Below the pieces are notes generated by a model that worked only from the letters and a program-made list of their open reading frames with translations, was not told the DNA's origin and made no database searches. The translations under genes and the position numbers were made by a program. From NCBI GenBank assembly GCA_001604185.1, contig LVAV01000006.1:1-64000 (forward strand): a stretch of 64,000 nucleotides of DNA, given 5' to 3'. This stretch comes from Clostridiales bacterium Firm_16. Its GTDB lineage: Bacteria > Bacillota > Clostridia > Saccharofermentanales > Saccharofermentanaceae. Below are positions 1 through 19,417 of this stretch, piece by piece (position 1 is the stretch's first letter; each line of letters starts with the position of its first letter).

Positions 1-110
1 CTGACTTCTTCTGTGATCAGATCAGGCATGACGATCGGTAATGCCGTGATCATGATAAGCACAGCCAGAAGAAGTGCTAAGCACCTTCTTCGATCTGTTC
101 TTGTTCTCAT
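1..110 (-). CDS. 5' end of a further giant secreted esterase paralogue (cut by window edge)
   Basis: The start codon is at 108-110 and 36 codons are visible before the left edge. They encode a basic N-terminus (MRTRTDRRR) and a hydrophobic signal-peptide core that match the start of the gene at 537-6023 almost residue for residue. Positions 1-110 correspond to 5914-6023 at a constant offset of 5913. A GGGGGG-rich ribosome binding site and the conserved promoter block lie upstream. This is therefore the beginning of a fourth member of the tandem array, which continues beyond the window. Its domain content cannot be seen. Confidence 0.8.
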   Translation of the reverse strand, partial: MRTRTDRRRCLALLLAVLIMITALPIVMPDLITEEV

Positions 111-153
111 TTTGTCCCCCCGTGGTTGCTCTAACATTCTGTCTTTCTTTTGT

Positions 154-226
154 CTGTTCGAACATTTGTTAACAATTAGTTCACATTTGTTCACATTTAG
201 TATAGCACGCTAATTGGGCAAGTCAA
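154..226 (-). promoter_or_regulatory. Promoter with TGTGAAC-type operator repeats (leftmost paralogue)
   Basis: Read on the minus strand there is a -35 TTGACT (221-226), a 16-bp spacer and a -10 TATACT (199-204). Immediately downstream (155-198), across the predicted start of transcription, are two TGTGAAC direct repeats and two palindromes, TTGTTAACAA and TGTTCGAACA (155-164), at 10-11 bp spacing. The block recurs upstream of the genes starting at 6023 and 14538. The promoter elements are visible; the operator role is inferred. Confidence 0.7.
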
Positions 227-265
227 CACAAAAAGTAATAAAAATTTAGTTTTTTTCAGAAGCCA

Positions 266-450
266 ACTATGTGGTGTTCTGCGTTGCGTCCTATTTTTTC
301 GCAAATGTAGAACACCACGTAGAATAATAGGGTATTGTTCTGCGTTGCGTCCTGTTTTTTCAAAAATGTAGAACACCACGTAGAATAATTGGGTATTGTT
401 CTGCGCTGCGTCCTGTTTTCCCCACTAACGCAGAACAATACGCAGAACAA
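266..450. repeat. 61-bp palindromic tandem repeat, array A (3 units)
   Basis: Three units start their TGTTCTGCG segment at about 276, 337 and 398, an exact 61-bp period. On the minus strand each unit contains GTGTTCTACATTTTTGAAAA and ends in CGCAGAACAA. The unit ends are complementary (one arm TTGTTCTGCG, the other CGTAGAATAA allowing G-U pairs), so each unit can fold as a hairpin. The same family occurs at 6178-6424 and 52652-52984. There are no unique spacers, so it is not CRISPR. Confidence 0.85.
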
Positions 451-490
451 ACAGAAAGACGGTCGTCTGGTGTTACCCTAACGACCGTCC
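451..490 (-). terminator. Rho-independent terminator of the 537-6023 gene
   Basis: A 9-bp stem (GACGGTCGT at 458-466 with ACGACCGTC at 481-489) is followed on the minus strand by a T-rich run (TTTCTGTTTGTT). It lies about 50 bp downstream of the stop codon at 537. The same hairpin is repeated after the neighbouring paralogue at 6425-6464. Confidence 0.8.
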
Positions 491-536
491 TTGTACTTGT
501 TATGACAGATTTACCGGAACAGGTTCCGGATCGATC

Positions 537-3500
537 TTAATACTTCACAAGGTCCAGCTTCAGCGCGAGTTTGGTGGAGCTGCCTGTGGAGAGGCTGTGT
601 GTAAAGACGATCTCGAGGTCATCTACATAACTGTCGACGCTGAGCTTGATCTTCTGTTCCGAACCGAGAGTGATCTGCTTCTGAGCATACACCTTACCCG
701 TGCTCTTCTCCTTCAGTGTTACCGTGATGGTTTTGCCGGAGTAAGCGGAGGCAGCCGGAACCGCCAGTTCTGCATAGGATACATATCCGTATGGTCTGGC
801 TGTGAATGTCTTGCCGGAAACTACGTAGTTGTTGGCATCCAGTTTCACGGTCTGACGGCAGTAGTTCAAGGTGCTTACCGTATGCATGTACGGCAGGCCG
901 GAATCGTTCTTTCTCATGAAGAAATCGTATTCGTTTCCTACTGTTACGCGGATGCTGTTGAAATCCTTCACGGCATTCGTGACGTCCGATCCTGTCACGA
1001 GAGTATCCAGATTCAGGTCCTTACATCCCCAGAACTGGATGTGTGGTTTGATTGCGTTTTCAGCAGAAATGTATCCCGAGAAACGGATCTTACCGCAGCC
1101 GGTGCAATCGGTAAACTTGATCTCTGCCGCGCCGTTGACCATCAGGAACTTCTTGGAATCGTAAGATGTGGTACCAAGATCGCATTCCTGGAACCGGACG
1201 ACCGGCGCACCCTGCGAGCAAGACGTCGTCTTCACGCATGAACTGTTGCTGTTGATGCCGAACTTGACACCACTGCAGATGAGATGCGGTGAATTATCCG
1301 GCTTAGCATTGTTTCTTCTCTCCTGTGTGTTGAAATCGAAGAAGAATGCGTTACCGGACTTCGGAATGATCGAACCACCGGTTATCGCGATACCCGTACC
1401 CGTGATGTAATGGAATGCATTACCTGTGAAATTCGTAATATCTGTGTTTATGAATCTCCAGTTTACCGCCTGTGGATCATCCAGTACGAATAACTCACAA
1501 GGTACGCTGCTTGTTCCGCAACTGTCGATCTTGCAATCTGTAAAAGTAACTTCTGAAAGCATGGCGGTGGATTCGATCGAGAACAGGATGTTTTTCCATC
1601 CTGTGAAAGAACAAGCGAAGAACTGCATTCTCTGCGTTCCGTCATTATGTGCGTTATTCATTCTGAGCGTCATGAAAGTATTGTTGTTATTTCCGACAAA
1701 ACTGATGTTACGGAAGGTCGTGAATGCGAAGGGGACCGCTTTATTATTCTGGTCCTTTATTTCGCTGTCGAAAAGAACTCCATCTTTCACGAAGTTGATG
1801 AATGTGTTGTCCTTGCCGGCGCCACTGACTTCGAACGTGCAGTATCTTAATCCCATGGATTCGTCAAGAATGCTTCCCGTGATCTTGTAGACGCCACCCG
1901 GAATGTAGATTGCCTGAGACTGCTTCCAGGTATTCGAATACTTGTCGTATTCGGCCGCGGCCTTAAACATCTTTCGAAAAGCACTTGTGCAGTCTGTTTC
2001 TCCGTCAGCAACGGCACCGAAATCCTGTGGTTTCAGAGAACCGGGTCTGTCCGTTTCTGTTCCGGCATCCGTTCCCTCGGAATAGTATCTTCCGGACGCA
2101 GAACTTGCTACCGGTACCGGTGCCGTATCGGCAACCGGACTCTTGGTTTTGACCAGCTGCAGGTTCATTCTGACTCTTACCGGGACCGATGTCGAGAAAC
2201 TCTGCTTGAGGACGACCTCGATCTCGTCTACGTCTTTGTTGATATCGAACTTGTAGGTTTTACCTGCGCCAAGTGTGAGCACCTGTTCAACAAGTTTCTG
2301 ACCCGAGGCCTTATCTTTCAATGTCAGATTCACGGTCTTGTTGGCATAAGATGTATTCTCCGGCACGACCAGTTCCGCATATCGGACATACCCATACGGC
2401 TTGGTCGTATAGGTCTTCTCTGTTGCATAGATGTAATCGAAGTCATCCAGTTTTACATTCTGGCGGCACTCCTTCAGACCGCTTGCGCTATGAATATATG
2501 GCAGCACGGATCCGGAATTCTTTTTTAGATAGAAATCGTAGGCATCGTCGATCGTGACACGAACACAGTTCGCATCTTTCGACGGATTGGTGATCTTCGC
2601 ATTTGCCGCAATACTGTTGGCGGATACATCTGAGCAATTGTAGAACCTTACACGAGGTTTCAGTGTGCTGTCGGATGTGATCTTGCTGTTGATAATGATA
2701 TTGGAGCAATCCACGCAGTCCTGGAAAATGATGTCTCCACCGCCGTGAACCGAAATACAGTTCGGAGAAATATTCGATATCGTACCGATGGCGGAGTTCT
2801 TGAAGTAAACGATCGGATACTCCTGAGATACACTGGTCGTTCTCACACACGAAGACTGGTCTCGGATCTCAAATCTGGCGTTCTCGCAGATCAGGTGCGG
2901 TGTGGTCTTCGATCCGGCACTAAAGTTTCTGGAAGAATCCGTAAAATCAAAGTTGAATACATTTCCGGTAAGCGGAATGATGGAACCGCCGGTCACATAA
3001 ACACTGGCTCCGCTTCTGTAGTAGAAGCAGTCTCCGTTGAAGGTTTCGATATCTGTATACCAGAACTTCAGCCTTATGGGCTTTCTGCCGTCCAGGACAA
3101 ACATCTTGCTCATGTTGGATTCGGTTCCGCAGGCTGTGAGTTTACAGTAAGAAAACTCGATGTCGGAGATCATGGCGAAAGACTGTTCTGTATAAAGGAC
3201 ATTCTTCCAGTGTTTGAATGCGCACGATACAAAACGGATCGTCTGCAGTTCGGGTTTCTTGATCTGGCTTGTGAGATCCGTTTCCGGAAGTCTCAGGAAT
3301 GTGTTGTTATCGTTTCCGAAGAATCCGATGTCACGGAATGTGGTAAATACGAGTGGTGAACAATCTCTTGCATCGATCATTGTTCCGTTCTTATCGAGAG
3401 TGATGATTGTACTCTCTCTTCCTGCACCGTAGACCTCGAAGACACAGTTACTGATACCCAGAGACTTGTCGATGATGCTGCCTGTGATCCGATACTTACC

Positions 3501-6023
3501 GCTCGGGATGTAGATCGGCTTCGCACGGCGGATGCCGTCAGATACGGTTCCGGCATCGTAGGCGGCCTTGAAAAGATTGCGGAAAGTCTGGGTGCAGTCT
3601 GTGCTGCCATTACTGATCTCCGCGTACTTGGCCGGGGTCAACGCACCGGCGATCCTCGAGCTGCTGTTGGCCAGAGCTTTTACCGCGACGGAAACCGTCT
3701 CGGTCTTACCGCCATAGGTCACGGTGATCTTGGTGTTGCCCTCCTTCAAGCCCGCGACGGAACCGTCGGCATACACTGTTGCAATGCTCGTGTCGGCGGA
3801 CTTGTAGGTAACGTTATTCAGTTTTACTTCCTTACCGTTATTTACGAAGATAATGTCTCCGAAAGCTCCCTTCATGATCTCCAACGTGGTGGATTTCAGT
3901 TTGGCCGCTACCGGGGTCGGTGTAGGTGTATTTGTCGGAGTCGGCGTGGCCTTCGGCACGATGCTGACCGGTGAGCAGAATGCTGTATAAACATTCTCAC
4001 TGTTTACTACTTTATAGGCGCGGACCTTAAAGTAATATCTCGTTCCGGTAGTCAGGCCGGGACAGTCTCTGTACGTGGTGGTCACGGCGCCGCACTTCGA
4101 ATAGGTGCCGTCCTTCGAAGTACTTCTAAAGACTTCATATCCGGACGCACCTTCCTGCGCTGTCCAGGACACCCGGACTTTCGTTGCCGTGAGGACCTCT
4201 GCCTTTACGCCCTTCGGTGCAGTGCCTTTCGCCATGATGCTGACAGGACTGCTGTAATTTCCGTAGATCTTCTTGCCGTTAACTTCTTTGTAGGCACGGA
4301 CTTTGAAGTAGTAGGTTGTCCAGGATGTCAGGCCCGGGCAGTCTCTGTTCGTGGTAGTTACTGCGCCGCACTTCGAATAGGTTCCGTTCGAAGAAGTGCT
4401 TCTGTATACCTCATATCCTGCAGCTCCGGATACGGCACTCCAAGAGATATTTGCCTTCGTTGCCGTGACGAGTGTAGCTTTCAGGTTCGTCGGCTTCGCC
4501 GGTGTCGGGACAGCCGTCGGTGTGTTTGTCGGTGTTGCCTTCTTGGTAGGCGTTACCTTCTTGGTCGGTGTATTTGTCGGTTTCTTCGTCGGGCTCGGTG
4601 TGTTCGTCGGCTTCTTCGTCGGCGTATTTGTCGGCTTCTTAGTGGGGGTAGGTGTTACTCCCGAACTGAATGTCGCTTTCAGTTGTCCGCTGTATTTGCC
4701 TGTCGAATCCGTGATCAGACATGCGATCGATTTTCCCACGTCATCTTGTCTGACTACATATGTTTTTCCGTAGTAACCGTTCGCCGTTCCGCTGGTGGTC
4801 CAGGTATACTTCAGATTGGCATCTGCGCAATTGCAGTCTGTAACCGTGACGCTCAACTGCTGACCCACGATCGTCTTACCGCTCTTGGTCACCGTGCCTT
4901 TCAGTGTCGGCTGCTTCGTGGGCGTCGGTGTGTTTGTGTTCTTTTTCGTAGGTGTATTCGTCGGCTTCTTAGTCGGCGTGTTCGTTGGTTTCTGCGTAGG
5001 TGTGTTCGTCGGCTTCTGCGTTGGCGTGTTCGTCGGCTTCTTGGTCGGAGTCGGTGTATTCGTCGGTTTCTTAGTCGGCGTAGGAGTTGTCGGGGCAGCC
5101 GTACGATTCAGCGCCGCATTGATCAGCTCGTCACTTGGAATGGTTCCAAACTTGTTGTAGTACAGATAGGAAAACAGCTCGGCTGTAAACAGTTTTAGCG
5201 CATGACTGCCGAAAGACGCATTAAATGCATTGTAAGTGAGATTTATGCCAGGGTTATTCGTGGTGATCGCATCCCTGTATTTTTCGGCATTTTGTTTGAA
5301 ATCCGTGGCTTCACCTTTACCATACGACATGAAGATCTTTGTACCACTTGAATACTTAATGTCGCTGGCATAGTTAAACCAGCCCCAGTTTCCATCACCG
5401 AGATAGAATGAGTTGGAACTGCTGAAAGCACCAATGTTGGTGCATCGCAGCGGAGACTTAACACCCATCGCCAAAGATACGCTGCCTCCCATCGAGAGTC
5501 CTGAGAAATAGAGCTGCGATTTGGTATTGACCTTACCGTTAAAATGTTTGCCACTATAGATCTCCGATACAAGTCTCTGGCCCTCATTCGCATTCATAGC
5601 GAAACGCCGGAAACAATCGTAGGTATCGTCATAACTGAGATCGGTTTGTTTTTCGATACTTGGAAGGACGACGATCATCTCGTCCATATAACCCATTTCG
5701 GTCCAGTATTCAATAAGTGAAATCAGATTGGAATTCTTGAGGCCATTCACGCCGCCCGCTCCGTGCACATACACCAAAACAGGATACGTTCCATTCCCGT
5801 TCGGAGCCAGGTAATAGCCCTTGTTGCGATTGTGCATGTCGTCGAAACTGCGACCGTTACTGTCAAAATTGTAAGTTGACCATGTGTCCGGATAGTGTTT
5901 GCTGCTTGCGGCGCTGACTTCTTCTGTGATCAGATCGGGCATTACGATCGGTAATGCCGTGATCATGATAAGCACAGCCAGAAGAAGTGCTAAGCACCTT
6001 CTTCGATCTGTTCTTGTTCTCAT
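537..6023 (-). CDS. Giant secreted esterase / beta-helix modular protein (1828 aa), paralogue 1
   Basis: A multidomain exoprotein, probably acting on plant polysaccharide outside the cell. Order (approximate residues): signal peptide 1-38; alpha/beta-hydrolase domain 40-300 with nucleophile elbow GLSMGGS (Ser177) and a likely catalytic His274 in GSHALK; Pro/Thr linker of PTKKPTNT units 304-373; Ig-like domain 373-456; second PT linker; two FN3 domains 506-690; Big2-like domain 706-781; two tandem pectate-lyase-superfamily-like beta-helix modules, about 790-1195 and 1330-1730, each followed by a beta-sandwich-like module of about 100 aa. The start is set at 6021-6023 (MRTRTD) because it follows a GGGGGGAC ribosome binding site; the open frame runs 28 codons further upstream but those codons overlap the operator repeats. 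No LPXTG, SLH or dockerin is visible. Esterase specificity (acetyl, feruloyl or other) and whether the helices cleave or only bind are unknown. Confidence 0.85.
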   Translation of the reverse strand: MRTRTDRRRCLALLLAVLIMITALPIVMPDLITEEVSAASSKHYPDTWSTYNFDSNGRSFDDMHNRNKGYYLAPNGNGTYPVLVYVHGAGGVNGLKNSNLISLIEYWTEMGYMDEMIVVLPSIEKQTDLSYDDTYDCFRRFAMNANEGQRLVSEIYSGKHFNGKVNTKSQLYFSGLSMGGSVSLAMGVKSPLRCTNIGAFSSSNSFYLGDGNWGWFNYASDIKYSSGTKIFMSYGKGEATDFKQNAEKYRDAITTNNPGINLTYNAFNASFGSHALKLFTAELFSYLYYNKFGTIPSDELINAALNRTAAPTTPTPTKKPTNTPTPTKKPTNTPTQKPTNTPTQKPTNTPTKKPTNTPTKKNTNTPTPTKQPTLKGTVTKSGKTIVGQQLSVTVTDCNCADANLKYTWTTSGTANGYYGKTYVVRQDDVGKSIACLITDSTGKYSGQLKATFSSGVTPTPTKKPTNTPTKKPTNTPSPTKKPTNTPTKKVTPTKKATPTNTPTAVPTPAKPTNLKATLVTATKANISWSAVSGAAGYEVYRSTSSNGTYSKCGAVTTTNRDCPGLTSWTTYYFKVRAYKEVNGKKIYGNYSSPVSIMAKGTAPKGVKAEVLTATKVRVSWTAQEGASGYEVFRSTSKDGTYSKCGAVTTTYRDCPGLTTGTRYYFKVRAYKVVNSENVYTAFCSPVSIVPKATPTPTNTPTPTPVAAKLKSTTLEIMKGAFGDIIFVNNGKEVKLNNVTYKSADTSIATVYADGSVAGLKEGNTKITVTYGGKTETVSVAVKALANSSSRIAGALTPAKYAEISNGSTDCTQTFRNLFKAAYDAGTVSDGIRRAKPIYIPSGKYRITGSIIDKSLGISNCVFEVYGAGRESTIITLDKNGTMIDARDCSPLVFTTFRDIGFFGNDNNTFLRLPETDLTSQIKKPELQTIRFVSCAFKHWKNVLYTEQSFAMISDIEFSYCKLTACGTESNMSKMFVLDGRKPIRLKFWYTDIETFNGDCFYYRSGASVYVTGGSIIPLTGNVFNFDFTDSSRNFSAGSKTTPHLICENARFEIRDQSSCVRTTSVSQEYPIVYFKNSAIGTISNISPNCISVHGGGDIIFQDCVDCSNIIINSKITSDSTLKPRVRFYNCSDVSANSIAANAKITNPSKDANCVRVTIDDAYDFYLKKNSGSVLPYIHSASGLKECRQNVKLDDFDYIYATEKTYTTKPYGYVRYAELVVPENTSYANKTVNLTLKDKASGQKLVEQVLTLGAGKTYKFDINKDVDEIEVVLKQSFSTSVPVRVRMNLQLVKTKSPVADTAPVPVASSASGRYYSEGTDAGTETDRPGSLKPQDFGAVADGETDCTSAFRKMFKAAAEYDKYSNTWKQSQAIYIPGGVYKITGSILDESMGLRYCTFEVSGAGKDNTFINFVKDGVLFDSEIKDQNNKAVPFAFTTFRNISFVGNNNNTFMTLRMNNAHNDGTQRMQFFACSFTGWKNILFSIESTAMLSEVTFTDCKIDSCGTSSVPCELFVLDDPQAVNWRFINTDITNFTGNAFHYITGTGIAITGGSIIPKSGNAFFFDFNTQERRNNAKPDNSPHLICSGVKFGINSNSSCVKTTSCSQGAPVVRFQECDLGTTSYDSKKFLMVNGAAEIKFTDCTGCGKIRFSGYISAENAIKPHIQFWGCKDLNLDTLVTGSDVTNAVKDFNSIRVTVGNEYDFFMRKNDSGLPYMHTVSTLNYCRQTVKLDANNYVVSGKTFTARPYGYVSYAELAVPAASAYSGKTITVTLKEKSTGKVYAQKQITLGSEQKIKLSVDSYVDDLEIVFTHSLSTGSSTKLALKLDLVKY
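4525..5095 (-). repeat. Coding minisatellite (PT linkers of paralogue 1)
   Basis: The linkers at about 4905-5095 and 4525-4655 are built from near-identical 18-24 bp units encoding PTKKPTNT or PTQKPTNT (on the + strand, GTCGGCTTCTTAGTCGGCG-type units). Comparable blocks are at about 9905-10045, 10615-10690 and 10935-11105 in paralogue 2, and 12775-12830, 13080-13200 and 13455-13610 in paralogue 3. Unit number differs between paralogues, as expected of slippage or recombination. Confidence 0.75.
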
Positions 6024-6066
6024 TTTGTCCCCCCGTGGTTGCTCTAACATTCTGTCTTTCTTTTGT

Positions 6067-6139
6067 CTGTTCGAACATTTGTTAACAATTAGTTCACATT
6101 TGTTCACATTTAGTATAGCACGCTAATTAGGCATGTCAA
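6067..6139 (-). promoter_or_regulatory. Promoter with operator repeats of paralogue 1
   Basis: The -35 is a perfect TTGACA (6134-6139), the -10 is TATACT (6112-6117), and the spacer is 16 bp. The block of two TGTGAAC repeats plus the palindromes TTGTTAACAA and TGTTCGAACA occupies 6068-6110, downstream of the -10. The copy at 154-226 differs mainly by having TTGACT as its -35. Confidence 0.75.
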
Positions 6140-6177
6140 CACAAAAAGTAATAAAAATTTAGTTTTTTCGGAAGCCA

Positions 6178-6424
6178 ACTATGTGGTGTTCTGCGTTGTG
6201 TTCTATTTTTTCGCAAATGTAGAACACCACGTAGAATAATAGGGTGGTGTTCTGCGTTGCGTCCTGTTTTTTCAAAAATGTAGAACACCATGTAGAATAA
6301 CCGGGTATTGTTCTGCGTTGCGTCCTGTTTTTTCAAAAATGTAGAACACCACGTAGAATAATTGGGTATTGTTCTGCGCTGCGTCCTGTTTTCCCCACTA
6401 ACGCAGAACACTACGCAGAACAAT
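6178..6424. repeat. 61-bp palindromic tandem repeat, array B (4 units)
   Basis: Four units start TGTTCTGCG at about 6188, 6249, 6310 and 6371, a strict 61-bp period. Same family and orientation as array A. The intergenic region here (6024-6510, 487 bp) is exactly 61 bp longer than its duplicate (111-536, 426 bp), so the two copies differ by one repeat unit. Confidence 0.85.
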
Positions 6425-6464
6425 ACAGAAAGACGGTCGTCTGGTGTTACCCTAACGACCGTCC
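6425..6464 (-). terminator. Rho-independent terminator of the 6511-12036 gene
   Basis: Duplicate of the hairpin at 451-490: GACGGTCGT (6432-6440) pairs with ACGACCGTC (6455-6463), with a T-rich tail on the minus strand, about 50 bp after the stop at 6511. Confidence 0.8.
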
Positions 6465-6510
6465 TTGTACTTGTTATGACAGATTTACCGGAACAGGTTC
6501 CGGATCGATC

Positions 6511-9500
6511 TTAATACTTCACAAGGTCCAGCTTCAACGCGAGTTTGGTGGAGCTGCCTGTGGAGAGGCTGTGGGTGAAGACGATCTCGAGGTCGTCTAC
6601 ATAACTGTCGACGCTGAGCTTGATTTTCTGTTCCGAACCGAGGGTGATCTGCTGCTGTGCGTATACCTTGCCTGTGCTCTTCTCCTTCAGTGTGACCGTG
6701 ATGGTCTTACCGGAGTAAGAGGAAGCGGCAGGGACAGCCAGTTCTGCATAGGATACATATCCATACGGTCTTGCTGTGAAAGATTTACCGGATACCACGT
6801 AGTTGTTGGCATCAAGTTTCACAGTCTGGCGGCAGTAATTCAAACCGCTTACGGTATGCATGTACGGCAGGCCGGAATCGTTCTTTCTCATATAGAAATC
6901 GTATTCGTTTCCTACGGTAACGCGGACGCTGTTGAAATCCTTCACGGCATTCGTGACTTCCGATCCTGTCACAAGAGTATCCAGGTTCAGGTCGTCACAG
7001 CCCCAGAACTGAACGTGTGGTTTGTATGCGCTTTGCGACTCAATGTATCCCGAGAAACGGATCTTGCCGCAACCGGTGCAATCGGTAAACTTGATCTCAC
7101 ACGCACCGTTGATCATCAGGAACTTCTTGGAATCGTAAGATGTGGTACCAAGATTACACTCCTGGAATCGGATGACCGGAGCGCCCTGTCCGCAAGACGT
7201 GGTCTTCACGCAGGAGCTGCTGCTGTTGATGCCGAACTTCACACCACTACAGATGAGTTGCGGCGAGTTACCCGGACCGGCTGTGTCTCTTCTGTCCGAA
7301 GTGTTGTAATCGAAGAAGAAAGCGTTACCGGCCTTCGGAATGATCGAACCACCTGTTATCGCGATACTCGTTCCCGAGATGTAATAGAACGCATCACCGG
7401 TGAAATTCGTAATATCTGTGTTTACGAATCTCCAGTTTACCGACTCTGAATCGTCCAGTACGAACAATTTACAAGGTACGCTGCTTGTTCCGCAACTGTC
7501 GATCTTGCAATCCGTGAATGTGTATTCTGAGAGCATGACCGTGGAATGGATCGTGTACAGAATGTTTTTCCATCCGGAGAAAGAACAACCGAAGAACTGC
7601 ATTCTCTGCGTTCCGTCTGTATTCTTGCCTTCTTTGTTCTTATTATTCATACGGAGCGTCATGAAGGTGTTGTTGTTATTTCCGACAAAACTGATGTTCC
7701 GGAAGGTCGTGAACGCGAAGGGTACCGCTGTATTATTCTGGTCCTTTATTTCACTGTCGAAAAGAACTCCATCTTTTACGAAGTTGATGAACGTATTGTC
7801 CTTGCCGGCACCACTGATCTCGAAGGTGCAGAAACTCAATCCCAGGGATTCGTCGATGATGCTTCCTGTGATCTTGTAGACACCACCCGGGATGTAGATC
7901 GCTTTCGACTGCTTCCAGGAATTCGAATACTTGTCGTAGTCGGCAGCGGCCTTGATCATCTTTCGAAAAGCACTTGTGCAGTCTGCCTCTCCGTCAGCAA
8001 CGGCGCCGAAATCCTGTGGCTTCAGAGAACCGGCTCTGTCGGTCTCATTGCTGGCATCTGTTCCCTCGGAATAATATCTTCCGGCCGAAGAACTTGCCAC
8101 CGGCACAGGTGCAGTATCGGCAACCGGGCTCTTGGTCTTGACCAGCTGCAGGTTCATTCTGACCTTTACCGGGATCGATGTTGAGAAGCTCTGCTTGAGA
8201 ACGACCTCGATCTCGTCTATGTCTTTGTTGATATCGAACTTGTACGTCTTACCTGCGCCGAGTGTGAGGACCTGTTCTACAAGTTTCTGCCCCGATTTCT
8301 TGTCCTTTAAGGTCAGATTCACGGTCTTATTGGCGTAAGAAGTATTCTCCGGTACAACCAGTTCTGCATACCGGACATATCCATACGGTTTGGTCGTATA
8401 GGACTTCTCCGTTGCATAGATGTAATCGAAGTCATCCAGCTTTACATTCTGACGGCATTCCTTCAGACCGCTTGCGCTATGAATATATGGCAGTACGGAT
8501 GAGGAATTGTTTTTCAGATAGAAATCGTAGGCATCATCGATCGTGACACGAACACAGTTCGCATCTTTCGACGGATTCGTGATCTTCGCAGCGGCCGCCA
8601 AAACGCTGGCCGATACATCCGGGCAATTGTAGAACCTTACACGCGGTTTCAGCGTGTTGTCGGATGTGATCTTGCTGTTGATAATGATGCTGGCGCAATC
8701 CGTGCAGTCCTGGAAAATAAAATCTCCACCGCCGTGGATCGACAGACAGTTCGGTGAAACATTCGATATCGTGCCTATACCTGCATTCTTAAAGTAAACG
8801 ATCGGATACTCCTGAGAAATACTGGTCGTTCTTACACAGGAAGAATAATCGTGGATCTCAAATCTGGAGTTCTCGCAGATCAGGTGCGGTGTGGTCTTCG
8901 ACCCGGCACTGAAGCTCCTGCCGGAATCCGTAAAGTCGAAGAAGAATGCATTTCCGTCAAGAGGAATGATCGAACCACCGGTCATGTAGACACTGGCTCC
9001 GCTCTTATAGTAGATGCAGTCTCCATAGAAGCTTTCGATATCTGTGTACCAGAACTTCATTCTGATGGGCTTTTTGTCGTCCAGGACAAACAACTTGCAC
9101 ATGTTGGATTTGGAACCACTGGATGTGATCTTGCAGTAAGCAAGCTCGATATCGGAGATCATGCCGGAAGACTTTTCTGAATATACAATATTCTTCCAGT
9201 GTTTGAATGCGCACGATACAAAACGGATCGTCTGCAGTTCCGATTTCTTGATCTGACTTGTAAGATCTGTTTCCGTAAGTCTCAGTAATGTATTGTTATC
9301 GGTTCCAAAGAATCCGATGTCGCGGAACGTGGTAAATACGAAGGGCGAGCAGGCTCTTGCATCGATCAGCGTTCCGTCCCGATCGAATGTAATACGTGTG
9401 CTTTCTCTTCCTGAACCGTAGATCTCGAAGACACAGTTACTGATATCCAGAGACTTGTCGATAATGCTGCCATGGACCACATAGTGTCCGCTCGGGATGT

Positions 9501-12036
9501 AGATCGGCTTCGCACGACGGATCCCGTCGGATACGGTTCCGGCATCGTAGGCAGCCTTAAAGAGATTGCGGAAAGTCTGGGTGCAGTCTGTGCTGCCATT
9601 ACCGATCTCCGCGTACTTGGCCGGGGTCAAAGCACCCGCGATCCTCGAGTTGTTGTTGACCAGAGCTTTTACCGCGACGGACACAGTCTCGGTCTTACCT
9701 CCATAGGTTACCGTGATCTTGGTGTTGCCCTCCTTCAGGCCCGCGACGGAACCGTCTGAATATACGGCGGCGATGCTTGAATCTGCGGACTTAAATGTTG
9801 CTCCGCTTACTTTCACTTCCTTGCCGTTATTTACGAAAACAATGTCTCCGAAAGTGCCCTTCATGATCTCCATCGTAGTGGATTTCAGCTTGGCCGCTAC
9901 CGGGGTCGGGGTATTCGTATTTGTCGGCTTCTTGGTGGGAGTCGGGGTATTCGTGTTCGTCGGCTTCTTCGTCGGAGTCGGGGTGTTCGTGTTCGTCGGC
10001 TTCTTGGTCGGTGTCGGTGTAGGAGTTACTTTCTTAGTCGGTGTCGGAGTAGTCGGCGCTTTCGGCACGATACTGACCGGTGAACAGAACTCTGTATAGA
10101 CATTCTCACCATTTACTACTTTATAAGCTCTGACCTTGAAGTAATATCTTGTACCTGTCGTCAGGCCGGGGCAGTCTCTGTAGGCTGTGGTGACTGCTCC
10201 GCACAACGAGTATGTTCCACCGGAAGACGTGCTTCTGTAGACTTCATAGCCGGACGCACCTTCCTGAGCCGTCCAGGATAATCTGATCTTGGTGGCGGTG
10301 AGGACCTCGGCCTTCACGCTTTTCGGTGCAGTACCTTTGGCCATGATGCTGACGGGACTGCTGTAATCACCATAGTACTTCTTTCCGTTGACTTCTTTGT
10401 AGGCACGGACTTTGAAGTAGTAGGTGGTCCAGGATGTCAGGCCCGGGCAGTCTCTGTTGGTAGTGGTCACGGCTCCGCACTTGGAATAGGTACCGTTCGA
10501 AGATGTGCTTCTGTAGACCTCATATCCTGCAGCACCAGACACGGCGCTCCAGGAGATGTTCGCCTTCGTTGCCGTTACGAGTGCCGCCTTCACATTCGAG
10601 GGCTTCGCCGGTGTCGGAACCGCAGTCGGCGTATTGGTCGGAGTCGGCTTCTTGGTCGGTGTATTCGTCGGCTTCTTGGTTGGAGTAGGAGTAACTCCCG
10701 AACTGAAAGTCGCTTTCAGTTGTCCGCCATATTTACCTGTCGAATCCGTGATCAGACACGCGATCGCTTTTCCCACGTCATCCTGTCTGACGACATAGGT
10801 TTTACCATAGTAACCATTCGCCGTGCCGCCGGTGGTCCAGGTGTACTTCAGATTGGCATCGGAACAGTTGCTGTCCGATACTGAGACACTCAACTGCTGA
10901 CCTACGATCGTCTTGCCGGATTTGGTCACGGTGCCTTTAATCGTCGGCTTCTTAGTCGGCGTCGGTGTATTGGTGTTCTTTTTCGTCGGCGTATTCGTCG
11001 GCTTCTTAGTCGGCGTGTTGGTCGGCTTCTTAGTCGGCGTATTTGTCGGCTTCTTGGTAGGAGTCGGCGTATTTGTATTTTTCTTCGTCGGAGTCGGTGT
11101 TGTCGGATTGGACGAAGGGTTCATCGCGGAATTGATCAGCGCATCACTTGGAATAGTACCGAACTTGTTGTAGTACAGATAGGAAAACAGTTCAGCTGTA
11201 AACAGTTTTGATCCGTGCCCACCGTAGGACGAATCAAAAGCGTTGTATGTAATCGTTATTCCAGGGTTCTGCGCAGTGATCGTATCTCTATATTTTTCGG
11301 CATTTTGCTTGTAACCCGAGCCTTCACCGTTGCCGTATGACATGAAGATCTTCGTACCACTTGCGTATTTGATATCGCTGGCGTAGTTAAACCAACCCCA
11401 GTTTCCGTCTCCGAGGTAAAAAGAACTGGAGCTGCTGAATGCGCCAATGTTGGTGCAGTGCTCCGAGCTCTTTACGCCCAACGCCAGAGATACGCTGCCG
11501 CCCATCGAGTAGCCTGAAACATAAAGCTGCGCTTTGGAATTGACTTTACCGTCAAAACGGCCGTCACTATAGATCTCGGTTACGAGTTTCTGACCCTCGC
11601 TATCATTCATCGCGAAGCGTCGGAAGCAGTCGTAGGTATCGTCATAGCCGAGATCGTCCTGTGCTTCGATGCTGGGAACGATGATGACCATCTCGTTCAT
11701 GTAACCCTTCTCAGTCCAGTATTCGAGAAGTGAGATCAGGTTGGATTTCGTAATGCTGTCCACACTGCCTGCACCGTGAATATACATTAATACAGGATAC
11801 TTGCCGCTGCCGTTCGGGGCCAGATAGTAGCCCTTGTTGCGGTTGTGCTTGTCATCGAAGCTTCGACCTTTACTGTCGAAATTATACTTTGACCATTGGT
11901 CAGGATAGTGTTTGGTGCTGGCGGCGCTGACTTCCTCTGAAACAAGATCCGGCATTACCAATGGTAATGCCGTGATCATGATCAGCACAGCCAGAAGAAA
12001 TGCCAGGCACCTTCTTCGGTCTGTTCTTGTTCTCAT
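6511..12036 (-). CDS. Giant secreted esterase / beta-helix modular protein (1841 aa), paralogue 2
   Basis: Close paralogue of the 537-6023 product with the same order: signal peptide, esterase domain with GYSMGGS (Ser177), PT linker, Ig-like domain, PT linker, two FN3 domains, a longer PT linker of PTKKPTNTNT units, Big2-like domain, and two beta-helix modules each with a beta-sandwich-like module. It differs in linker lengths and in scattered substitutions, including a short insertion in the second beta-helix. Unlike the other copies it lacks the conserved promoter block: only 87 bp separate it from the stop of the 12124-14538 gene, so it is probably co-transcribed with that gene. Presumed secreted; substrate unknown. 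Confidence 0.85.
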   Translation of the reverse strand: MRTRTDRRRCLAFLLAVLIMITALPLVMPDLVSEEVSAASTKHYPDQWSKYNFDSKGRSFDDKHNRNKGYYLAPNGSGKYPVLMYIHGAGSVDSITKSNLISLLEYWTEKGYMNEMVIIVPSIEAQDDLGYDDTYDCFRRFAMNDSEGQKLVTEIYSDGRFDGKVNSKAQLYVSGYSMGGSVSLALGVKSSEHCTNIGAFSSSSSFYLGDGNWGWFNYASDIKYASGTKIFMSYGNGEGSGYKQNAEKYRDTITAQNPGITITYNAFDSSYGGHGSKLFTAELFSYLYYNKFGTIPSDALINSAMNPSSNPTTPTPTKKNTNTPTPTKKPTNTPTKKPTNTPTKKPTNTPTKKNTNTPTPTKKPTIKGTVTKSGKTIVGQQLSVSVSDSNCSDANLKYTWTTGGTANGYYGKTYVVRQDDVGKAIACLITDSTGKYGGQLKATFSSGVTPTPTKKPTNTPTKKPTPTNTPTAVPTPAKPSNVKAALVTATKANISWSAVSGAAGYEVYRSTSSNGTYSKCGAVTTTNRDCPGLTSWTTYYFKVRAYKEVNGKKYYGDYSSPVSIMAKGTAPKSVKAEVLTATKIRLSWTAQEGASGYEVYRSTSSGGTYSLCGAVTTAYRDCPGLTTGTRYYFKVRAYKVVNGENVYTEFCSPVSIVPKAPTTPTPTKKVTPTPTPTKKPTNTNTPTPTKKPTNTNTPTPTKKPTNTNTPTPVAAKLKSTTMEIMKGTFGDIVFVNNGKEVKVSGATFKSADSSIAAVYSDGSVAGLKEGNTKITVTYGGKTETVSVAVKALVNNNSRIAGALTPAKYAEIGNGSTDCTQTFRNLFKAAYDAGTVSDGIRRAKPIYIPSGHYVVHGSIIDKSLDISNCVFEIYGSGRESTRITFDRDGTLIDARACSPFVFTTFRDIGFFGTDNNTLLRLTETDLTSQIKKSELQTIRFVSCAFKHWKNIVYSEKSSGMISDIELAYCKITSSGSKSNMCKLFVLDDKKPIRMKFWYTDIESFYGDCIYYKSGASVYMTGGSIIPLDGNAFFFDFTDSGRSFSAGSKTTPHLICENSRFEIHDYSSCVRTTSISQEYPIVYFKNAGIGTISNVSPNCLSIHGGGDFIFQDCTDCASIIINSKITSDNTLKPRVRFYNCPDVSASVLAAAAKITNPSKDANCVRVTIDDAYDFYLKNNSSSVLPYIHSASGLKECRQNVKLDDFDYIYATEKSYTTKPYGYVRYAELVVPENTSYANKTVNLTLKDKKSGQKLVEQVLTLGAGKTYKFDINKDIDEIEVVLKQSFSTSIPVKVRMNLQLVKTKSPVADTAPVPVASSSAGRYYSEGTDASNETDRAGSLKPQDFGAVADGEADCTSAFRKMIKAAADYDKYSNSWKQSKAIYIPGGVYKITGSIIDESLGLSFCTFEISGAGKDNTFINFVKDGVLFDSEIKDQNNTAVPFAFTTFRNISFVGNNNNTFMTLRMNNKNKEGKNTDGTQRMQFFGCSFSGWKNILYTIHSTVMLSEYTFTDCKIDSCGTSSVPCKLFVLDDSESVNWRFVNTDITNFTGDAFYYISGTSIAITGGSIIPKAGNAFFFDYNTSDRRDTAGPGNSPQLICSGVKFGINSSSSCVKTTSCGQGAPVIRFQECNLGTTSYDSKKFLMINGACEIKFTDCTGCGKIRFSGYIESQSAYKPHVQFWGCDDLNLDTLVTGSEVTNAVKDFNSVRVTVGNEYDFYMRKNDSGLPYMHTVSGLNYCRQTVKLDANNYVVSGKSFTARPYGYVSYAELAVPAASSYSGKTITVTLKEKSTGKVYAQQQITLGSEQKIKLSVDSYVDDLEIVFTHSLSTGSSTKLALKLDLVKY

Positions 12037-12123
12037 TTTGTTTCCCCCCGTGTTCGCTCTAAAGAGCTTTCACAATATCATTAACAAAATACGTATACCC
12101 TCTTGATCATTTACGGATTCTGA

Positions 12124-14538
12124 TTATCCTCTTTCCGGAACCAACAGCATCTTCTTTGCCAGAGTCGGTGTTGCCGACTGGATCGAAGTGGTCACTGCTC
12201 TTGGAGTTGCGCTGACCGGTGCGCAGAAATCAGTATAAACATTCTCTCCGTTCACTACTTTATAAGCGCGAACCTTGAAGTAATATCTGGTTCCTGTTGT
12301 CAGGCCGGGGCATTCTCTCTCCGGTGTGGTTACCGCGCCGAGCTTAGTGTATGTTCCGTCTTTGGAGGTGCTTCTAAAGACTTCGTATCCGGTTGCACCC
12401 GGCTGCTCCGCCCAGGTCAATTTCACCTTCGTAGCGGATACGACCTGTGCCTTCACACTTCTTGGTGCAGTTCCGATCGGCATAGCGCTGACCGGAGCAC
12501 TGAAATCACCGAAGATCTTCTTTCCGCTGACAGTTCTGTATGCGCGTACTTTGAAGTAGTAGGTGGTCCAGGATGTCAGGCCGGGGCAGTCTCTGCTCGT
12601 CGTGGTTACGGCGCCGGTCTTCGAATAGGTTCCGTCTTTCTCTGTACTTCTGTATACTTCATATCCGGTTGCATCAGCAACGGCACTCCAGGATACTTTC
12701 ACTTTCGTCGAAGACATCAGTTCTGTCGTCAGATTTGCCGGCTTCGCAGGTGACGGAACGGCTGTCGGTGTATTGGACGGTGTCGGCTTCTTGGTCGGTG
12801 TATTTGTCGGCTTCTTGGTAGGTGTAGGTGTTGTTGCCGAGCTGAATACAGCCTTGAGCTGTCCGGCGTAATTACCTGTTGAATCGGTGATGATGCAGGA
12901 GATGGATTTGCCTACATCTTCTTTCTTTACTTCATAGATCTGTCCGTAGTAACCATTCGGGGTACCACCTGTCTGCCATGCGAAATTCAGGTTGGAAGCT
13001 GCGACGTTGCAGTTCGATACGGTTACGACAAGCTGCTGACCAACAACCGGCTTTCCGGTCTTGGTAACGGTGCCCTTAATTGTCGGCTTCTTTGTCGGAG
13101 CCGGAGTATTGGTGGTTTTCTTTGTCGGTGTATTTGTCGGCTTCTTGGTAGGAGTCGGAGTATGGGTCGGCGTATTCGTCGGCTTCGACGGTGTAGGTGT
13201 GATACCTCTCTCGGCAACGTACAGTGTCACTGTGATGGTGGAGTGATTACCGTACAGGAGTTTGCCTGCTTCCGGATCCTGTTTACGAACTGTACAGGTC
13301 AGCGCCGGATTATTATTGTCTACCCATGCGATCTGGTAATTTACCTTATCGAAACCATGTTTGCTCAGAAGATCCGTGATCGTTCTCTGTGCATCCTGGT
13401 AGTTCATGCCGATTACATCCGGCATTGTCGCCGGCGGTAACGGTGTAGGTGCGGCTGTAGGCGTCTTTGTCGGAGTATTTGTCGGCTTCTTAGTCGGCGT
13501 GTTTGTCGGCTTCTTAGTCGGTGTGTTGGTTGGCTTCTTGGTTGGTGTGTTTGTCGGCTTCTTTGTAGGAGTCGGTGTGTTCGTCGGCTTCTTGGTAGGC
13601 GTGGGTGTTACCGGATTGGACGACGGATTCATTGCAGACTTGATCAGTGCATCAGTCGGCATGGTTCCGAATTTGTTGTAGTACAAATAAGAGAACAGTT
13701 CTACCGTGAAGAGCTTCGGATCGTGTCCGCCGTAAGATGCATCGAAAGCATTGTACTTGATCGTTACATCCGGATCGTACTTCTCGATAATGTACTTATA
13801 TCTCTCTGCATTCTCCTTGAAGTATGCATCTTCTCCCTTACCATAGGAAAGGAAAAGGCGTGTGTTGCCTGAATACTTGATATCGCTGGCGTAGTTGTAC
13901 CAACCATAGTTTCCATCTCCGAGATAGAAAGAGTTGGAGCAGCTGAAAGCGCCGAGGTTGTAGCAATGGTTATTGTCTCTTACGCCCAAAGCCAGAGTTA
14001 CGCTGCCACCCATGGAATAACCCGTCACATGGAGCGGAGCTTTTGTATTGACTTTACCGTCAAAACGATTGCCGCTGACGATCTCGGATACGAGTTTCAG
14101 ACCTTCGTTATCGTTGAAAACGAAGCGACGGAAGCAGTCGTACTTGTCTTCGTCAGTGCCCTTGGGCTGTCTGTCGATCTGCGGAACAACGACGACCATC
14201 TCGTCCATATAGCCCTGTTCCGTCCAGTATTCGATAAGTGAAATCAGATTGGTGTTAAGAATGTTGCTCACTGTTCCCGCGCCGTGAACATACATCAATG
14301 CCGGATACTTTCCGCTGCCTTTCGGGGCCAGATAGTAGCCCTTGTTACGGTTGTTCGTATCGTCAAAGCTTCGACCTTGACTGTCGAAATTGTAAGTTGA
14401 CCATTTGTCCGGGTAATGTTTGGTGGTTGCTGCGTTGACTTCTTCTGTGATCAGATCCGGCATTACGATCGGTAATGCTGTGATCATGATGAGCACAGCA
14501 AGAATTAGTGCCAGGCACCTTCTTCGTTCTCTTTTCAT
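12124..14538 (-). CDS. Short secreted esterase paralogue with PASTA domain (804 aa), paralogue 3
   Basis: Signal peptide and esterase domain (nucleophile motif GYSMGGS, Ser175) as in paralogues 1 and 2, then a PT linker (about 300-370), a PASTA-like domain (371-442, with MPDVIGM, a QDP motif and a closing STITVTL strand), a PT linker, an Ig-like domain (488-568), a PT linker and two FN3 domains (598-775). The protein ends in a short tail (KKMLLVPERG) where the others continue into Big2 and beta-helix modules, so those roughly 1000 residues are absent. PASTA domains are best known from PBPs and Ser/Thr kinases, where they sense or bind peptidoglycan; here the domain could attach the esterase to the wall, which is inference. 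Own promoter block upstream; likely first gene of an operon with paralogue 2. Confidence 0.85.
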   Translation of the reverse strand: MKRERRRCLALILAVLIMITALPIVMPDLITEEVNAATTKHYPDKWSTYNFDSQGRSFDDTNNRNKGYYLAPKGSGKYPALMYVHGAGTVSNILNTNLISLIEYWTEQGYMDEMVVVVPQIDRQPKGTDEDKYDCFRRFVFNDNEGLKLVSEIVSGNRFDGKVNTKAPLHVTGYSMGGSVTLALGVRDNNHCYNLGAFSCSNSFYLGDGNYGWYNYASDIKYSGNTRLFLSYGKGEDAYFKENAERYKYIIEKYDPDVTIKYNAFDASYGGHDPKLFTVELFSYLYYNKFGTMPTDALIKSAMNPSSNPVTPTPTKKPTNTPTPTKKPTNTPTKKPTNTPTKKPTNTPTKKPTNTPTKTPTAAPTPLPPATMPDVIGMNYQDAQRTITDLLSKHGFDKVNYQIAWVDNNNPALTCTVRKQDPEAGKLLYGNHSTITVTLYVAERGITPTPSKPTNTPTHTPTPTKKPTNTPTKKTTNTPAPTKKPTIKGTVTKTGKPVVGQQLVVTVSNCNVAASNLNFAWQTGGTPNGYYGQIYEVKKEDVGKSISCIITDSTGNYAGQLKAVFSSATTPTPTKKPTNTPTKKPTPSNTPTAVPSPAKPANLTTELMSSTKVKVSWSAVADATGYEVYRSTEKDGTYSKTGAVTTTSRDCPGLTSWTTYYFKVRAYRTVSGKKIFGDFSAPVSAMPIGTAPRSVKAQVVSATKVKLTWAEQPGATGYEVFRSTSKDGTYTKLGAVTTPERECPGLTTGTRYYFKVRAYKVVNGENVYTDFCAPVSATPRAVTTSIQSATPTLAKKMLLVPERG

Positions 14539-14581
14539 GATGTTTTCCTCCGCTGTTTAAAACTTCTGTCTTTCTTTTGTC

Positions 14582-14653
14582 TGTTCGAACATTTGTTAAC
14601 ATATTGTTCACATTTGTTCACAATCAGTATATCACGATAATTTGCGAAGTCAA
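14582..14653 (-). promoter_or_regulatory. Promoter with operator repeats of paralogue 3 / paralogue 2 operon
   Basis: -35 TTGACT (14648-14653), 16-bp spacer, AGTATA on the + strand (14626-14631) giving TATACT as the -10. TGTGAAC/TGTGAAC/TGTTAAC repeats and the TGTTCGAACA palindrome follow at 14582-14622. Same architecture as at 154-226 and 6067-6139 although the flanking sequence has diverged, which favours selection on the block. Confidence 0.7.
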
Positions 14654-14964: not shown

Positions 14965-17346
14965 TTATTTCTCCTGGATCACGAGGTTAACGCGGCTCTG
15001 GATGTTTTTCATGACGTCTTCGGCGGTGCGGGAGCCGGCGAAGTAGCCCAGGGTCTCTTCTACGATGATTTCCATTATAGTCTCATCGTAACTTGCGGAG
15101 CAGTTTATGTTTTCCACTATCTGGAGGAACTCTTCGATGTCTGCATCTTCCACACGTCTTGTGACCTTGTCGGAACTGAGGAAGCCTTTCTCTAGATACT
15201 TCGCATCCTCGTCGGCGATAGTGTTGTAGTAGGACTGCACATTTACACAAGAAGCACGGAGCTCTTTACGGCTCACGGAAAAAGCCTGCAACACCACACC
15301 GGGAGTTTTTGCCATGGAATCATAGAGAAGGTAACTGCGCAGTACATCCCAGGCCGCGTCTTTCTGCTTACATTCCTGCGTAATACCTGCTGTGCAGGTT
15401 GGGGACACGCGGAGACCTTCGCCGTTACTGTTGGGGAATCCGATGAGGAAGGGCTTCTCTTTTCCGGTGGAACCGCGCATCAGGTTCCAGTAATCGTAGA
15501 AACCGGACACATCTTCATGAAACATAGCCAGCATTCCTTCGTTAAACTTTGTGGCGACGGAGATTGATTCACTGGAGCTGAGGAAGGAGCCATCCGCCGT
15601 GAATACATAACCGGAATCGTCTTGATCGGTAGACTCGCAACCGTAGGTTTTGGAGATCTCCAGATACTTCTTGAAGGTCTCATTATTGAAATCTACGGTC
15701 TTGTTCTTCCCGTCCACAAACTTATCCAGGGACATGCTCACCAGACATCTGAGAAATTGTATCTTCGTGATGTCGGAGAGGAAGGTCACATCCTGCGGCA
15801 GGCTTCGCGCCACGGATTCGAATTCGTCGAAGGTCCAGCCGGTGCGCTTGCTGATATAAGCAGGGTTGGCGACGAACCCTTCCATGCCGAAGGTAAGTGG
15901 AATATGGAAAAGCTTCCCGCCCCGTTCCATGGAGCGGAAGATGTTATCGAAAAACAGTGACCGGTCGATGCCGTTGGGGCCGTCCATGAACTCGTTGAGG
16001 TCTGCCATGGTATTCTCGTCGGAGAAGGTGATCCCGTCATTGAAGTTCAGGAGGATATCCGGGGGCGTGGTGCTCATGAGGTCCAGAAGGATCCGGGATT
16101 CCAGATTATCCTGCTCGTCATCGGGTGCATCGGAGTAAGACACCATCACGATCTTGTACTTATGGCTGTGATCCGTATTGTATTCGTACATGAAATCCAG
16201 AAACCTTTCGTTGGTGTTCAGCGCGCCCACGGTGACAAGAGTTTTGCCCGCGTGAGGGTTGGTGTCGGCGCGGGTCAGGTGGATCAATGACTTGCCGACG
16301 GATCCGTCACTTGTGTCATGCATATCGCTGCCAAGAACATAGAATTCGTTCTCACTGACGGGCTGGCACTTGCAATCGACAAGCATAGACAGATTGACAT
16401 CTGTGTCATTCCAGTCGAAAACCTGGTTCATCTCGCCTTTGGCAAGGTCGGCCTTGAAAATACCCTGATCGGATGTGACATAGGCTCCATCACGGGCCGG
16501 CATCGGATAGCCGTTGGACAGGAAGGAGCTGAGTTCTTTTTCAGAGAGGAACTTTCCTGTCTGGATATCCATTTCTCTTACATACGTCATGGTGGAGAAA
16601 CTATTTTCACTGACATCATACTGGACCGAAACGATATATTTCTTCCCGTCAACTTCGTAGAGATTTTCCAGGACCTGCCGGCTGCCGTCGGTGATGCTGT
16701 ATTTCTTCTGCCCGTTCTGGTCGTAGACGGTCATGTCGCCTCCGAGGGCAACAACAAAAAGGCCTTCTTCAGTGATTTTCAGAAACCCGACTTCTATGTA
16801 ATCAGCAGCGGGAGCAGGAAAACGGACCTCCCGGCTTGTATCCTCGGAGCCGTCTTCTTTCATGGGGATGGCGCGGACATAATTCTCGTTCTGGGACGCA
16901 ACGGATGACTCCAGCAGCCACATGGTTCCGTCCTTGGATGCTGATGCGCTAAGTACTCTCCAGTCGGAGTGAAGAGTTTTGACCAGATTACCCTTCAGAT
17001 CGAAAAGGGCCATGCCCTGAACATAGGAGTCATCGTCGGTCATGAATTCGAGCGTAGTATCGGGGCTTTCGTACTCCTGGTAATATTCTGCAAGGATCAT
17101 GTCCCCGATGAAACTTGCGGATGCGATGGAATTCGTAAGGACTTTGCGGTCCGGATCTGTCGGCATGACGAGGGATGTGATACCTGCATCGAAATAGGGA
17201 TCTGTGGCTTTGGCCGCGGTGGCACCGCTGACCGGGGATGCGGAGCGGGATGTGGTGTCCGATGTGTCGTTCTTCTTACAACCTGCGAAAGGCAATGCCA
17301 TGGACAGCGCCATGATCAGGGCTGCCATACTTCTCTTCTTACTCAT
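14965..17346 (-). CDS. Large lipoprotein with C-terminal solute-binding domain (793 aa)
   Basis: Signal peptide with lipobox LPFAGC (lipidated Cys23), a short Ser/Thr-rich spacer, an N-terminal region of about 340 residues whose strand-turn pattern suggests a beta-propeller, and from about residue 365 a domain resembling extracellular solute-binding protein family 1 (PPDILLNF, LNEFMDG, GKLFHIPLTFGMEG, RTGWTFDEF). Twice the length of ordinary ABC binding proteins, and no permease or ATPase genes adjoin it. Paralogue of the 23460-25886 product; both have DPY near the mature N-terminus and the C-terminal signature YF(A/T)G-R-T. Probably a membrane-anchored binding or sensing protein on the outer face; ligand unknown. 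Start at MSKK, preceded by GGAGAGAG. Confidence 0.75.
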   Translation of the reverse strand: MSKKRSMAALIMALSMALPFAGCKKNDTSDTTSRSASPVSGATAAKATDPYFDAGITSLVMPTDPDRKVLTNSIASASFIGDMILAEYYQEYESPDTTLEFMTDDDSYVQGMALFDLKGNLVKTLHSDWRVLSASASKDGTMWLLESSVASQNENYVRAIPMKEDGSEDTSREVRFPAPAADYIEVGFLKITEEGLFVVALGGDMTVYDQNGQKKYSITDGSRQVLENLYEVDGKKYIVSVQYDVSENSFSTMTYVREMDIQTGKFLSEKELSSFLSNGYPMPARDGAYVTSDQGIFKADLAKGEMNQVFDWNDTDVNLSMLVDCKCQPVSENEFYVLGSDMHDTSDGSVGKSLIHLTRADTNPHAGKTLVTVGALNTNERFLDFMYEYNTDHSHKYKIVMVSYSDAPDDEQDNLESRILLDLMSTTPPDILLNFNDGITFSDENTMADLNEFMDGPNGIDRSLFFDNIFRSMERGGKLFHIPLTFGMEGFVANPAYISKRTGWTFDEFESVARSLPQDVTFLSDITKIQFLRCLVSMSLDKFVDGKNKTVDFNNETFKKYLEISKTYGCESTDQDDSGYVFTADGSFLSSSESISVATKFNEGMLAMFHEDVSGFYDYWNLMRGSTGKEKPFLIGFPNSNGEGLRVSPTCTAGITQECKQKDAAWDVLRSYLLYDSMAKTPGVVLQAFSVSRKELRASCVNVQSYYNTIADEDAKYLEKGFLSSDKVTRRVEDADIEEFLQIVENINCSASYDETIMEIIVEETLGYFAGSRTAEDVMKNIQSRVNLVIQEK

Positions 17347-19054: not shown

Positions 19055-19148
19055 ATATATAACCACCTTCCGACAACACACAGAGGATCTTTTCTGTATG
19101 TATGACAGTTGTCGGAAGGAGTTCGTTACAACTTTTTTGAGGGGCGGT

Positions 19149-19398: not shown

Positions 19399-19417
19399 TC
19401 TCCAAGGGGCTTCCGGC

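Follow-up and report, generated by a model that had tools for sequence, protein, structure and literature searches.

A tandem array of esterase and beta-helix predicted exoproteins in Clostridiales bacterium Firm_16: a candidate glycan-processing set

What would a bacterium do with a row of giant proteins in which an esterase and a pair of beta-helices are found together, and sometimes apart? We ask this of an array of four paralogous genes at the left edge of contig LVAV01000006.1 (C6 below) of Clostridiales bacterium Firm_16. The window, that is, the whole stretch of 64,000 nucleotides analyzed, is bases 1-64000 of C6 (window base 1 is C6 base 1), and the source is a draft genome of 3.72 Mb, 97.6% complete and 5.4% contaminated. 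A serine esterase with a Ser-Glu-His triad is found in three of the four members, and a duplicated beta-helix pair in three of the four. Our reading, to which we give an even chance, is that the array encodes a secreted, probably surface-linked set for processing glycans, in which a deacylase would work with helices that grip a glycan and probably cleave it. The target would probably be a plant or microbial polysaccharide.

Members of the array and their modules

All members are on the minus strand, and so are the parts and the promoter-like and operator-like sites whose coordinates are given below. Member 1 (12124-14538) has 804 amino acids (aa), and members 2 (6511-12036, 1841 aa) and 3 (537-6023, 1828 aa from the ATG at 6023) are intact. 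The open reading frame caller gives member 3 the limits 537-6107 (GTG start, 1856 aa), and we set the GTG at 6107 aside because it stands 5 bases after a promoter-like -10 box. Member 4 starts at 1-110 with a signal peptide recognized by eye and, judging from an overlap described below, very probably continues on another contig, C109 (L027:1-4527), as a 1508-aa frame that begins inside the signal peptide. By arithmetic on the C6 and C109 parts, the whole would measure about 1524 aa. The original prediction had proposed same-orientation paralogues, two of them intact at about 1830-1840 aa, reaching past the left edge. The array as found, with three whole members and the beginning of a fourth, bears this out; the window starts at the first base of C6, and the further member on C109 is very probably the rest of the fourth. 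Its count of "four or more" stands at four, and no count beyond four is supported.

The members are not alike, and they differ in domain content. Members 2 and 3 (82.6% identity over 1873 aligned positions) share one order: signal peptide, esterase, Ig-like stretch, two FN3 domains, Big_2, helix module 1 and helix module 2. Member 1, about 52% identical to each of them over the shared part, has a signal peptide, the esterase, a degenerate PASTA domain (22.5 bits, just under the 23.2 cut-off), an Ig-like stretch and two FN3 domains, and neither Big_2 nor helices are matched in it by Pfam. Member 4, in the joined C6-C109 frame, has no esterase, and consists of an Ig-like stretch, two FN3 domains, a Big_2-like region and both helix modules. 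The claim that each member joins all modules thus fails for member 1 and, if the join is right, for member 4.

For the full copies, the predicted module list holds in part. FN3 (two stretches), the esterase family PF00756 and the helix family PF12708 are above curated cut-offs in members 2 and 3, while Big_2 is so in member 3 only (26.4 bits vs. a cut-off of 22.8; 18 bits, below the cut-off, in member 2). In member 4 the Big_2-like region is recognized by alignment only, with no Pfam match at E 0.1. Signal peptides and Ig-like stretches were assigned by eye. No Pfam family matches the Ig-like stretch itself in these members of the window (E up to 1), and we name it by its appearance and by a similar-looking stretch in a relative, L079, that does match Ig profiles.

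The esterase domain lies at 13609-14433 in member 1, 11101-11925 in member 2 and 5088-5912 in member 3. In member 3, the FN3 pair spans approximately 3939-4499 and Big_2 3687-3818. Helix modules 1 and 2 occupy 8128-9645 and 6514-8043 in member 2, and 2139-3656 and 540-2054 in member 3. Pro/Thr-rich linkers accompany the FN3 domains. Pfam reports no DUF4214 repeats and no CE8 or PL9 match in the four members, and an NCBIfam scan returned nothing of use. Some FN3 matches were to phage tail families; they are generic, and were set aside.

Esterase, beta-helices and a phage tailspike

The esterase matches PF00756 in members 1-3 with 26.0, 28.7 and 24.5 bits (cut-off 22), and has a GxSxG nucleophile followed by an acid and a His in sequence order. 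The candidate triad is Ser177, Glu238 and His274 in the numbering of member 2. A profile of the family gives 35 matches, spread over 20 of the 115 family genomes with the own genome counted, and 33 of those matches, in 36 aligned stretches of which some are partial, give the conservation of the triad: Ser177 in 33 of 34, Glu238 in 27 of 29 (the exceptions being an Asp and a Gly) and His274 in 31 of 31, counts that may hold a few genes twice due to overlapping loci. Compared with the PDB, a profile from six esterases ranks feruloyl esterases first, with a remote best match of 44 bits; a single sequence finds nothing significant (best E 1.5). The esterase appears feruloyl-esterase-like and active, where the link to CE1 feruloyl esterases is one of profile kinship. 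It resembles those enzymes (AmCE1/Fae1A, the XynZ domain; PF00756) in profile, in the GxSxG and in the order of acid and His, and it differs from them in being remote, in having Glu as the acid in most homologues, and in being fused to FN3 domains and helices. The hydrolase with Ser177 of the original prediction is therefore upheld; the lack of an acid residue in the triad, named there as grounds for refutation, is not what we find, as Glu238 is present. A search of the genome with PF20434 matched esterases elsewhere, the array not among them.

The helices match PF12708 with 41.6 and 41.0 bits in members 2 and 3 (cut-off 27), and the three PF12708 matches in the whole genome at E 0.001 are all in the array. 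Helix modules 1 and 2, 41% identical over their whole length (E 3e-148), are by their sequences an internal tandem duplication. Each ends in a C-terminal strand-rich part of its own, just as the predicted beta-sandwich-like partner of each helix. A model of module 2 of member 3 by itself matches beta-helix folds, with a predicted local distance difference test score (pLDDT) of 78 and a predicted template modelling score (pTM) of 0.75. This model was used in place of one of the helix pair, which is too weak to judge packing (pLDDT 62, pTM 0.42). In the fold comparison, the 50 matches listed have Z 21.6-25.6, and lyases, hydrolases, epimerases and the adhesin PfbA are indistinguishable among them.

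Can motifs tell which enzyme these helices might be? Nine Asp, Glu, His or Arg residues upstream of the C-terminal part are invariant (D21, R27, D64, E75, D205, D240, D346, D377 and H391). GH28 enzymes have the catalytic motifs NTD, then DD, G.H and R.K. A test for these fails: the patterns G.H[GA] and R[IV]K are absent in 13 of 13 modules, and while all 13 have a TD pair, DD[CA] occurs in 4, with the DDC cases standing before the TD site, the wrong order for GH28. The active site of AlgE-type mannuronan C5-epimerases is of the YGFDPH type, and it is absent from the helix modules. In the GH55 double beta-helix glucanases, the two helices pack as one unit. A GH55 structure, 3eqn, gives a weak N-terminal profile match (E 5.8e-4), a single-sequence search of the PDB with the helix pair finds nothing significant (best E 0.36), and in the model of the pair the helices are separated by the strand-rich part and a low-confidence stretch (499-554).

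In 50,697 phage records, there is one relative of the helix, the tailspike of Vibrio phage 1.266.O (AUR99472.1), homologous to the helix core over 370-386 residues at 24-28% identity. Tailspikes as a class are usually enzymatic. The tblastn matches to the phage start at module residues 1-10, where other modules precede in the bacterial protein; the array copies are duplicated and set among those other modules, and the beta-helix core is what the two sides have in common. The N-terminus of the phage protein is presumably of the virion-binding type, and no virion-attachment N-terminal domain of tailspike type is seen in the array proteins. A similarity between the C-terminal parts, first seen by eye, was dropped, as its 6.6 bits are not above shuffled sequences (best of 500 shuffles, 7.2). 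In scans of viral contigs, neither the helix profile nor the phage protein picked out a confirmed relative, and a search of plasmids with helix module 2 found none.

Relatives, and the weighing of function

The helix pair is found in 4 of 98 relatives, and the module profile in 6 of 115 family genomes, own genome included in both; among 391 class genomes, the profile finds the own genome and three weak partial matches (≤22.1 bits). The two named relatives derive from metagenomes of buffalo rumen and sheep omasum. The exoproteins of L025 and L026 share the Big_2-like region and the helix pair with the array (74-78% identity to members 2 and 3), but have four DUF4214 repeats where those members have esterase, Ig-like and FN3 parts. 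In L042, Pfam finds four DUF4214 repeats, and the single helix module does not match PF12708 at E 0.001; L035 and L041 resemble L042 in layout, by eye. Nine homologous esterase frames scanned with Pfam (two of them, L060 and L079, cut at the locus end) carry DUF4214 (3), ChW (2), choline-binding (2), Ig-type (1), FN3 (1) and, in one, PASTA, with no helix match; PF00756 itself is not matched at E 0.001 in L068 and L079. The C-termini of the remaining homologues were judged by eye.

Because the relatives have their helices behind DUF4214 and without esterase, the fusion of esterase and helices looks like local shuffling. The helix pair sits behind DUF4214 there, and the esterase family elsewhere is fused to choline-binding, ChW or DUF4214 repeats, so that FN3/Ig and DUF4214 appear to substitute for one another as parts for attachment and spacing. 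One paper regards DUF4214 as a likely surface anchor in segmented filamentous bacteria (PMC12780176), and the idea of S-layer-anchored enzymes is relayed in a second one (PMC11970703). Shuffling or conversion between genes extends to member 4, since its helices group with L025 in the helix tree (99/99; members 2 and 3 pair at 100/100) and its Ig-FN3 part shares 86-88% identity with that of members 2 and 3. All compared regions are under purifying selection: the ratio of nonsynonymous to synonymous rates (dN/dS) lies at 0.05-0.19 in each of the 22 region-pair comparisons, several of which are rough because dS there is >1.

How would such a set work? A signal peptide would export the array proteins. 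The esterase would take acyl groups such as feruloyl or acetyl off a decorated polysaccharide; the two helices, on a flexible linker, would grip the backbone in long grooves and would probably also cut it, the usual activity of the related tailspike fold. Members with the esterase alone or the helices alone would share the substrate of the fused ones, the fusion having presumably arisen locally. The original prediction of ester removal plus cutting or binding by the helices thus finds an active-looking esterase and modules of pectate-lyase fold in its favor, while cleavage of a glycan by helices so modelled is unproven: a match to non-enzymatic adhesins was the other ground for refutation named there, and PfbA, an adhesin of that kind, ties with enzymes by fold. 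As for the substrate, predicted to be pectin or xylan, three plant-polysaccharide families were tested in the genome, and pectin is less likely than predicted because there are three matches to GH10 xylanase and none to PL1 (PF00544) or GH28 (PF00295).

Several observations weigh against this glycan-processing reading. The helices have no recognized catalytic signature; a non-enzymatic adhesin, PfbA, is level with enzymes in the fold comparison; and of the nine invariant residues the phage tailspike keeps D21, D205 and D377 only. The four members have no carbohydrate-binding module (CBM) or dockerin match in Pfam and no sortase motif by eye, for which reason we only infer surface attachment. 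DUF4214 is matched at least 150 times in the genome (of 296 candidates, 150 were scored), and the domain is joined there to leucine-rich repeats, not necessarily enzymes; among its other partners are a GDSL/YXIM esterase and a heparinase-like lyase.

The alternative that survives best is that the beta-helices only bind, anchoring the protein to plant fiber or a cell surface as CBM54 of ChiW or PfbA would, and leave the esterase as the sole enzyme. We find it unlikely, if a serious contender: the sole relative in the phage records belongs to a usually enzymatic class, and the profile searches made identified no known binding family. More speculatively, and at rather long chances, the helices may be tailspike-type depolymerases common to phages and gut Clostridia, here duplicated and fused with a feruloyl-esterase-like deacylase into one secreted machine that would deacylate and cut an acylated glycan, while helix-only, esterase-only and fused genes are retained next to one another. 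Improbable in our view is a microbial target in place of plant fiber, be it the cell's own or a neighbor's wall polymer, a capsule or a biofilm, in which case the esterase and the tailspike-type helices would remodel or attack acylated bacterial exopolysaccharide. The nearest helix relative outside the family being a phage tailspike is consistent with that, as are the missing PL1 and GH28 matches and the ChW or choline-binding, cell-wall-binding repeats in 4 of the 9 scanned esterase frames; but those repeats may merely anchor the enzyme to its own cell, the named relatives come from rumen and omasum, the genome has its GH10 matches, and the nearest esterase by profile is a feruloyl esterase.

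Is the architecture new? The domain types are known. So is the combination of an esterase and a beta-helix in one giant secreted rumen protein, PmeC5 of Butyrivibrio fibrisolvens (CE8, PL9 and adhesin-like domains, 2089 aa); there the CE8 esterase is itself a beta-helix and the lyase a PL9, whereas the array has a PF00756 esterase and PF12708 helices (PMC12109409). ChiW of Paenibacillus, likened by description, is likewise a multi-modular surface protein, with a CBM54 beta-helix, Ig-like and catalytic domains; its catalytic domains are GH18, and it is anchored by SLH (PMC5132251). PfbA of Streptococcus pneumoniae differs in having one helix domain, and no lyase activity was detected in it (PMC3718772). 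Titles and abstract beginnings in the literature gave no such architecture besides PmeC5 and ChiW, and nothing was found there linking DUF4214, pectate lyase and rumen. The earlier statement of knowing no named family with this order therefore stands for the exact order, which we did not find in the searched profile libraries and literature, and is qualified by PmeC5. New, as far as searched, are the domain order, the local esterase-helix fusion beside split versions, and the tailspike link. One locus with esterase-only, helix-only and fused genes under purifying selection offers a natural test of the effect of joining a deacylase to tailspike-like helices, and it connects a module of bacterial exoproteins with one particular phage tailspike. 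It also has FN3/Ig parts in place of DUF4214, the likely surface anchor of segmented filamentous bacteria mentioned above (PMC12780176).

As a side observation, the own genome (for instance L028, L087 and L090) has a very large modular exoproteome, in which DUF4214 or FN3 blocks, many of them with Pro/Thr linkers, sit on leucine-rich repeats, heparinase-like and GDSL domains.

Contig edge, putative expression units and neighboring genes

The left end of C6 and the start of C109 overlap exactly by 62 base pairs (bp; window 1-62 and the first 62 bases of L027). Within the first 15 kilobases (kb) of C6, read on the array strand, no C109 prefix longer than 62 bases matches, and its first 40 bases have a single site, the C6 left end. 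The shared 62-base end apparently marks a place inside the array where a repeat broke the assembly. That near-identical repeats at a contig end gave rise to a spurious fourth copy or a spurious join, as a contaminated draft and the identity of members 3 and 4 over the 64 translated residues before the edge might suggest, is very improbable, for copies 3 and 4 are 96.7% and not 100% identical over 419 aligned bases, the 40-base match is confined to the C6 left end on the array strand of those 15 kb, and the helices of the C109 member, only 72.7% identical to those of member 3, mark a distinct gene.

Promoter-like sites with an extended -10 precede member 1 (14626-14653), member 3 (6112-6139) and member 4 (199-226), and each is followed by a 20-bp operator-like element (14582-14601, 6068-6087 and 155-174). 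Single promoter-like sites weigh little, as 28 of any kind are found in 15 kb vs. 16.4 expected; a 19-bp piece of the operator-like element has three occurrences only in the genome (≤2 mismatches). Members 1 and 2 are 87 bases apart, and no promoter-like site is listed on the array strand in that gap. These sequence features fit a duplication that included the promoter, with members 1 and 2 on one transcript. Upstream of the promoter-like sites there are also 61-bp tandem units, at 275-419 for member 4 and 6186-6392 for member 3.

Downstream of member 4 on C109 come a KAP NTPase and then type I restriction-modification genes; at L027:5473-11667, the KAP NTPase (PADLOC PifA profile, E 1.6e-85) adjoins the HsdR and HsdM genes. 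Gene lengths had suggested kinship between the genes that flank the array on C6 and those on C109, an idea that was rejected. Directly upstream of the array on C6 is a solute-binding-protein-like gene of about 800 aa (14965-17346; 26.1 bits, just under the cut-off), and a second one of about 800 aa lies at 23460-25886 (38.7 bits). Between the gene at 17546-19081 and a metallo-beta-lactamase-fold gene at 19418-20065, the block 19144-19403 consists of about five head-to-tail 53-bp units, each with two oppositely oriented GGGGACTAAA-type stretches.
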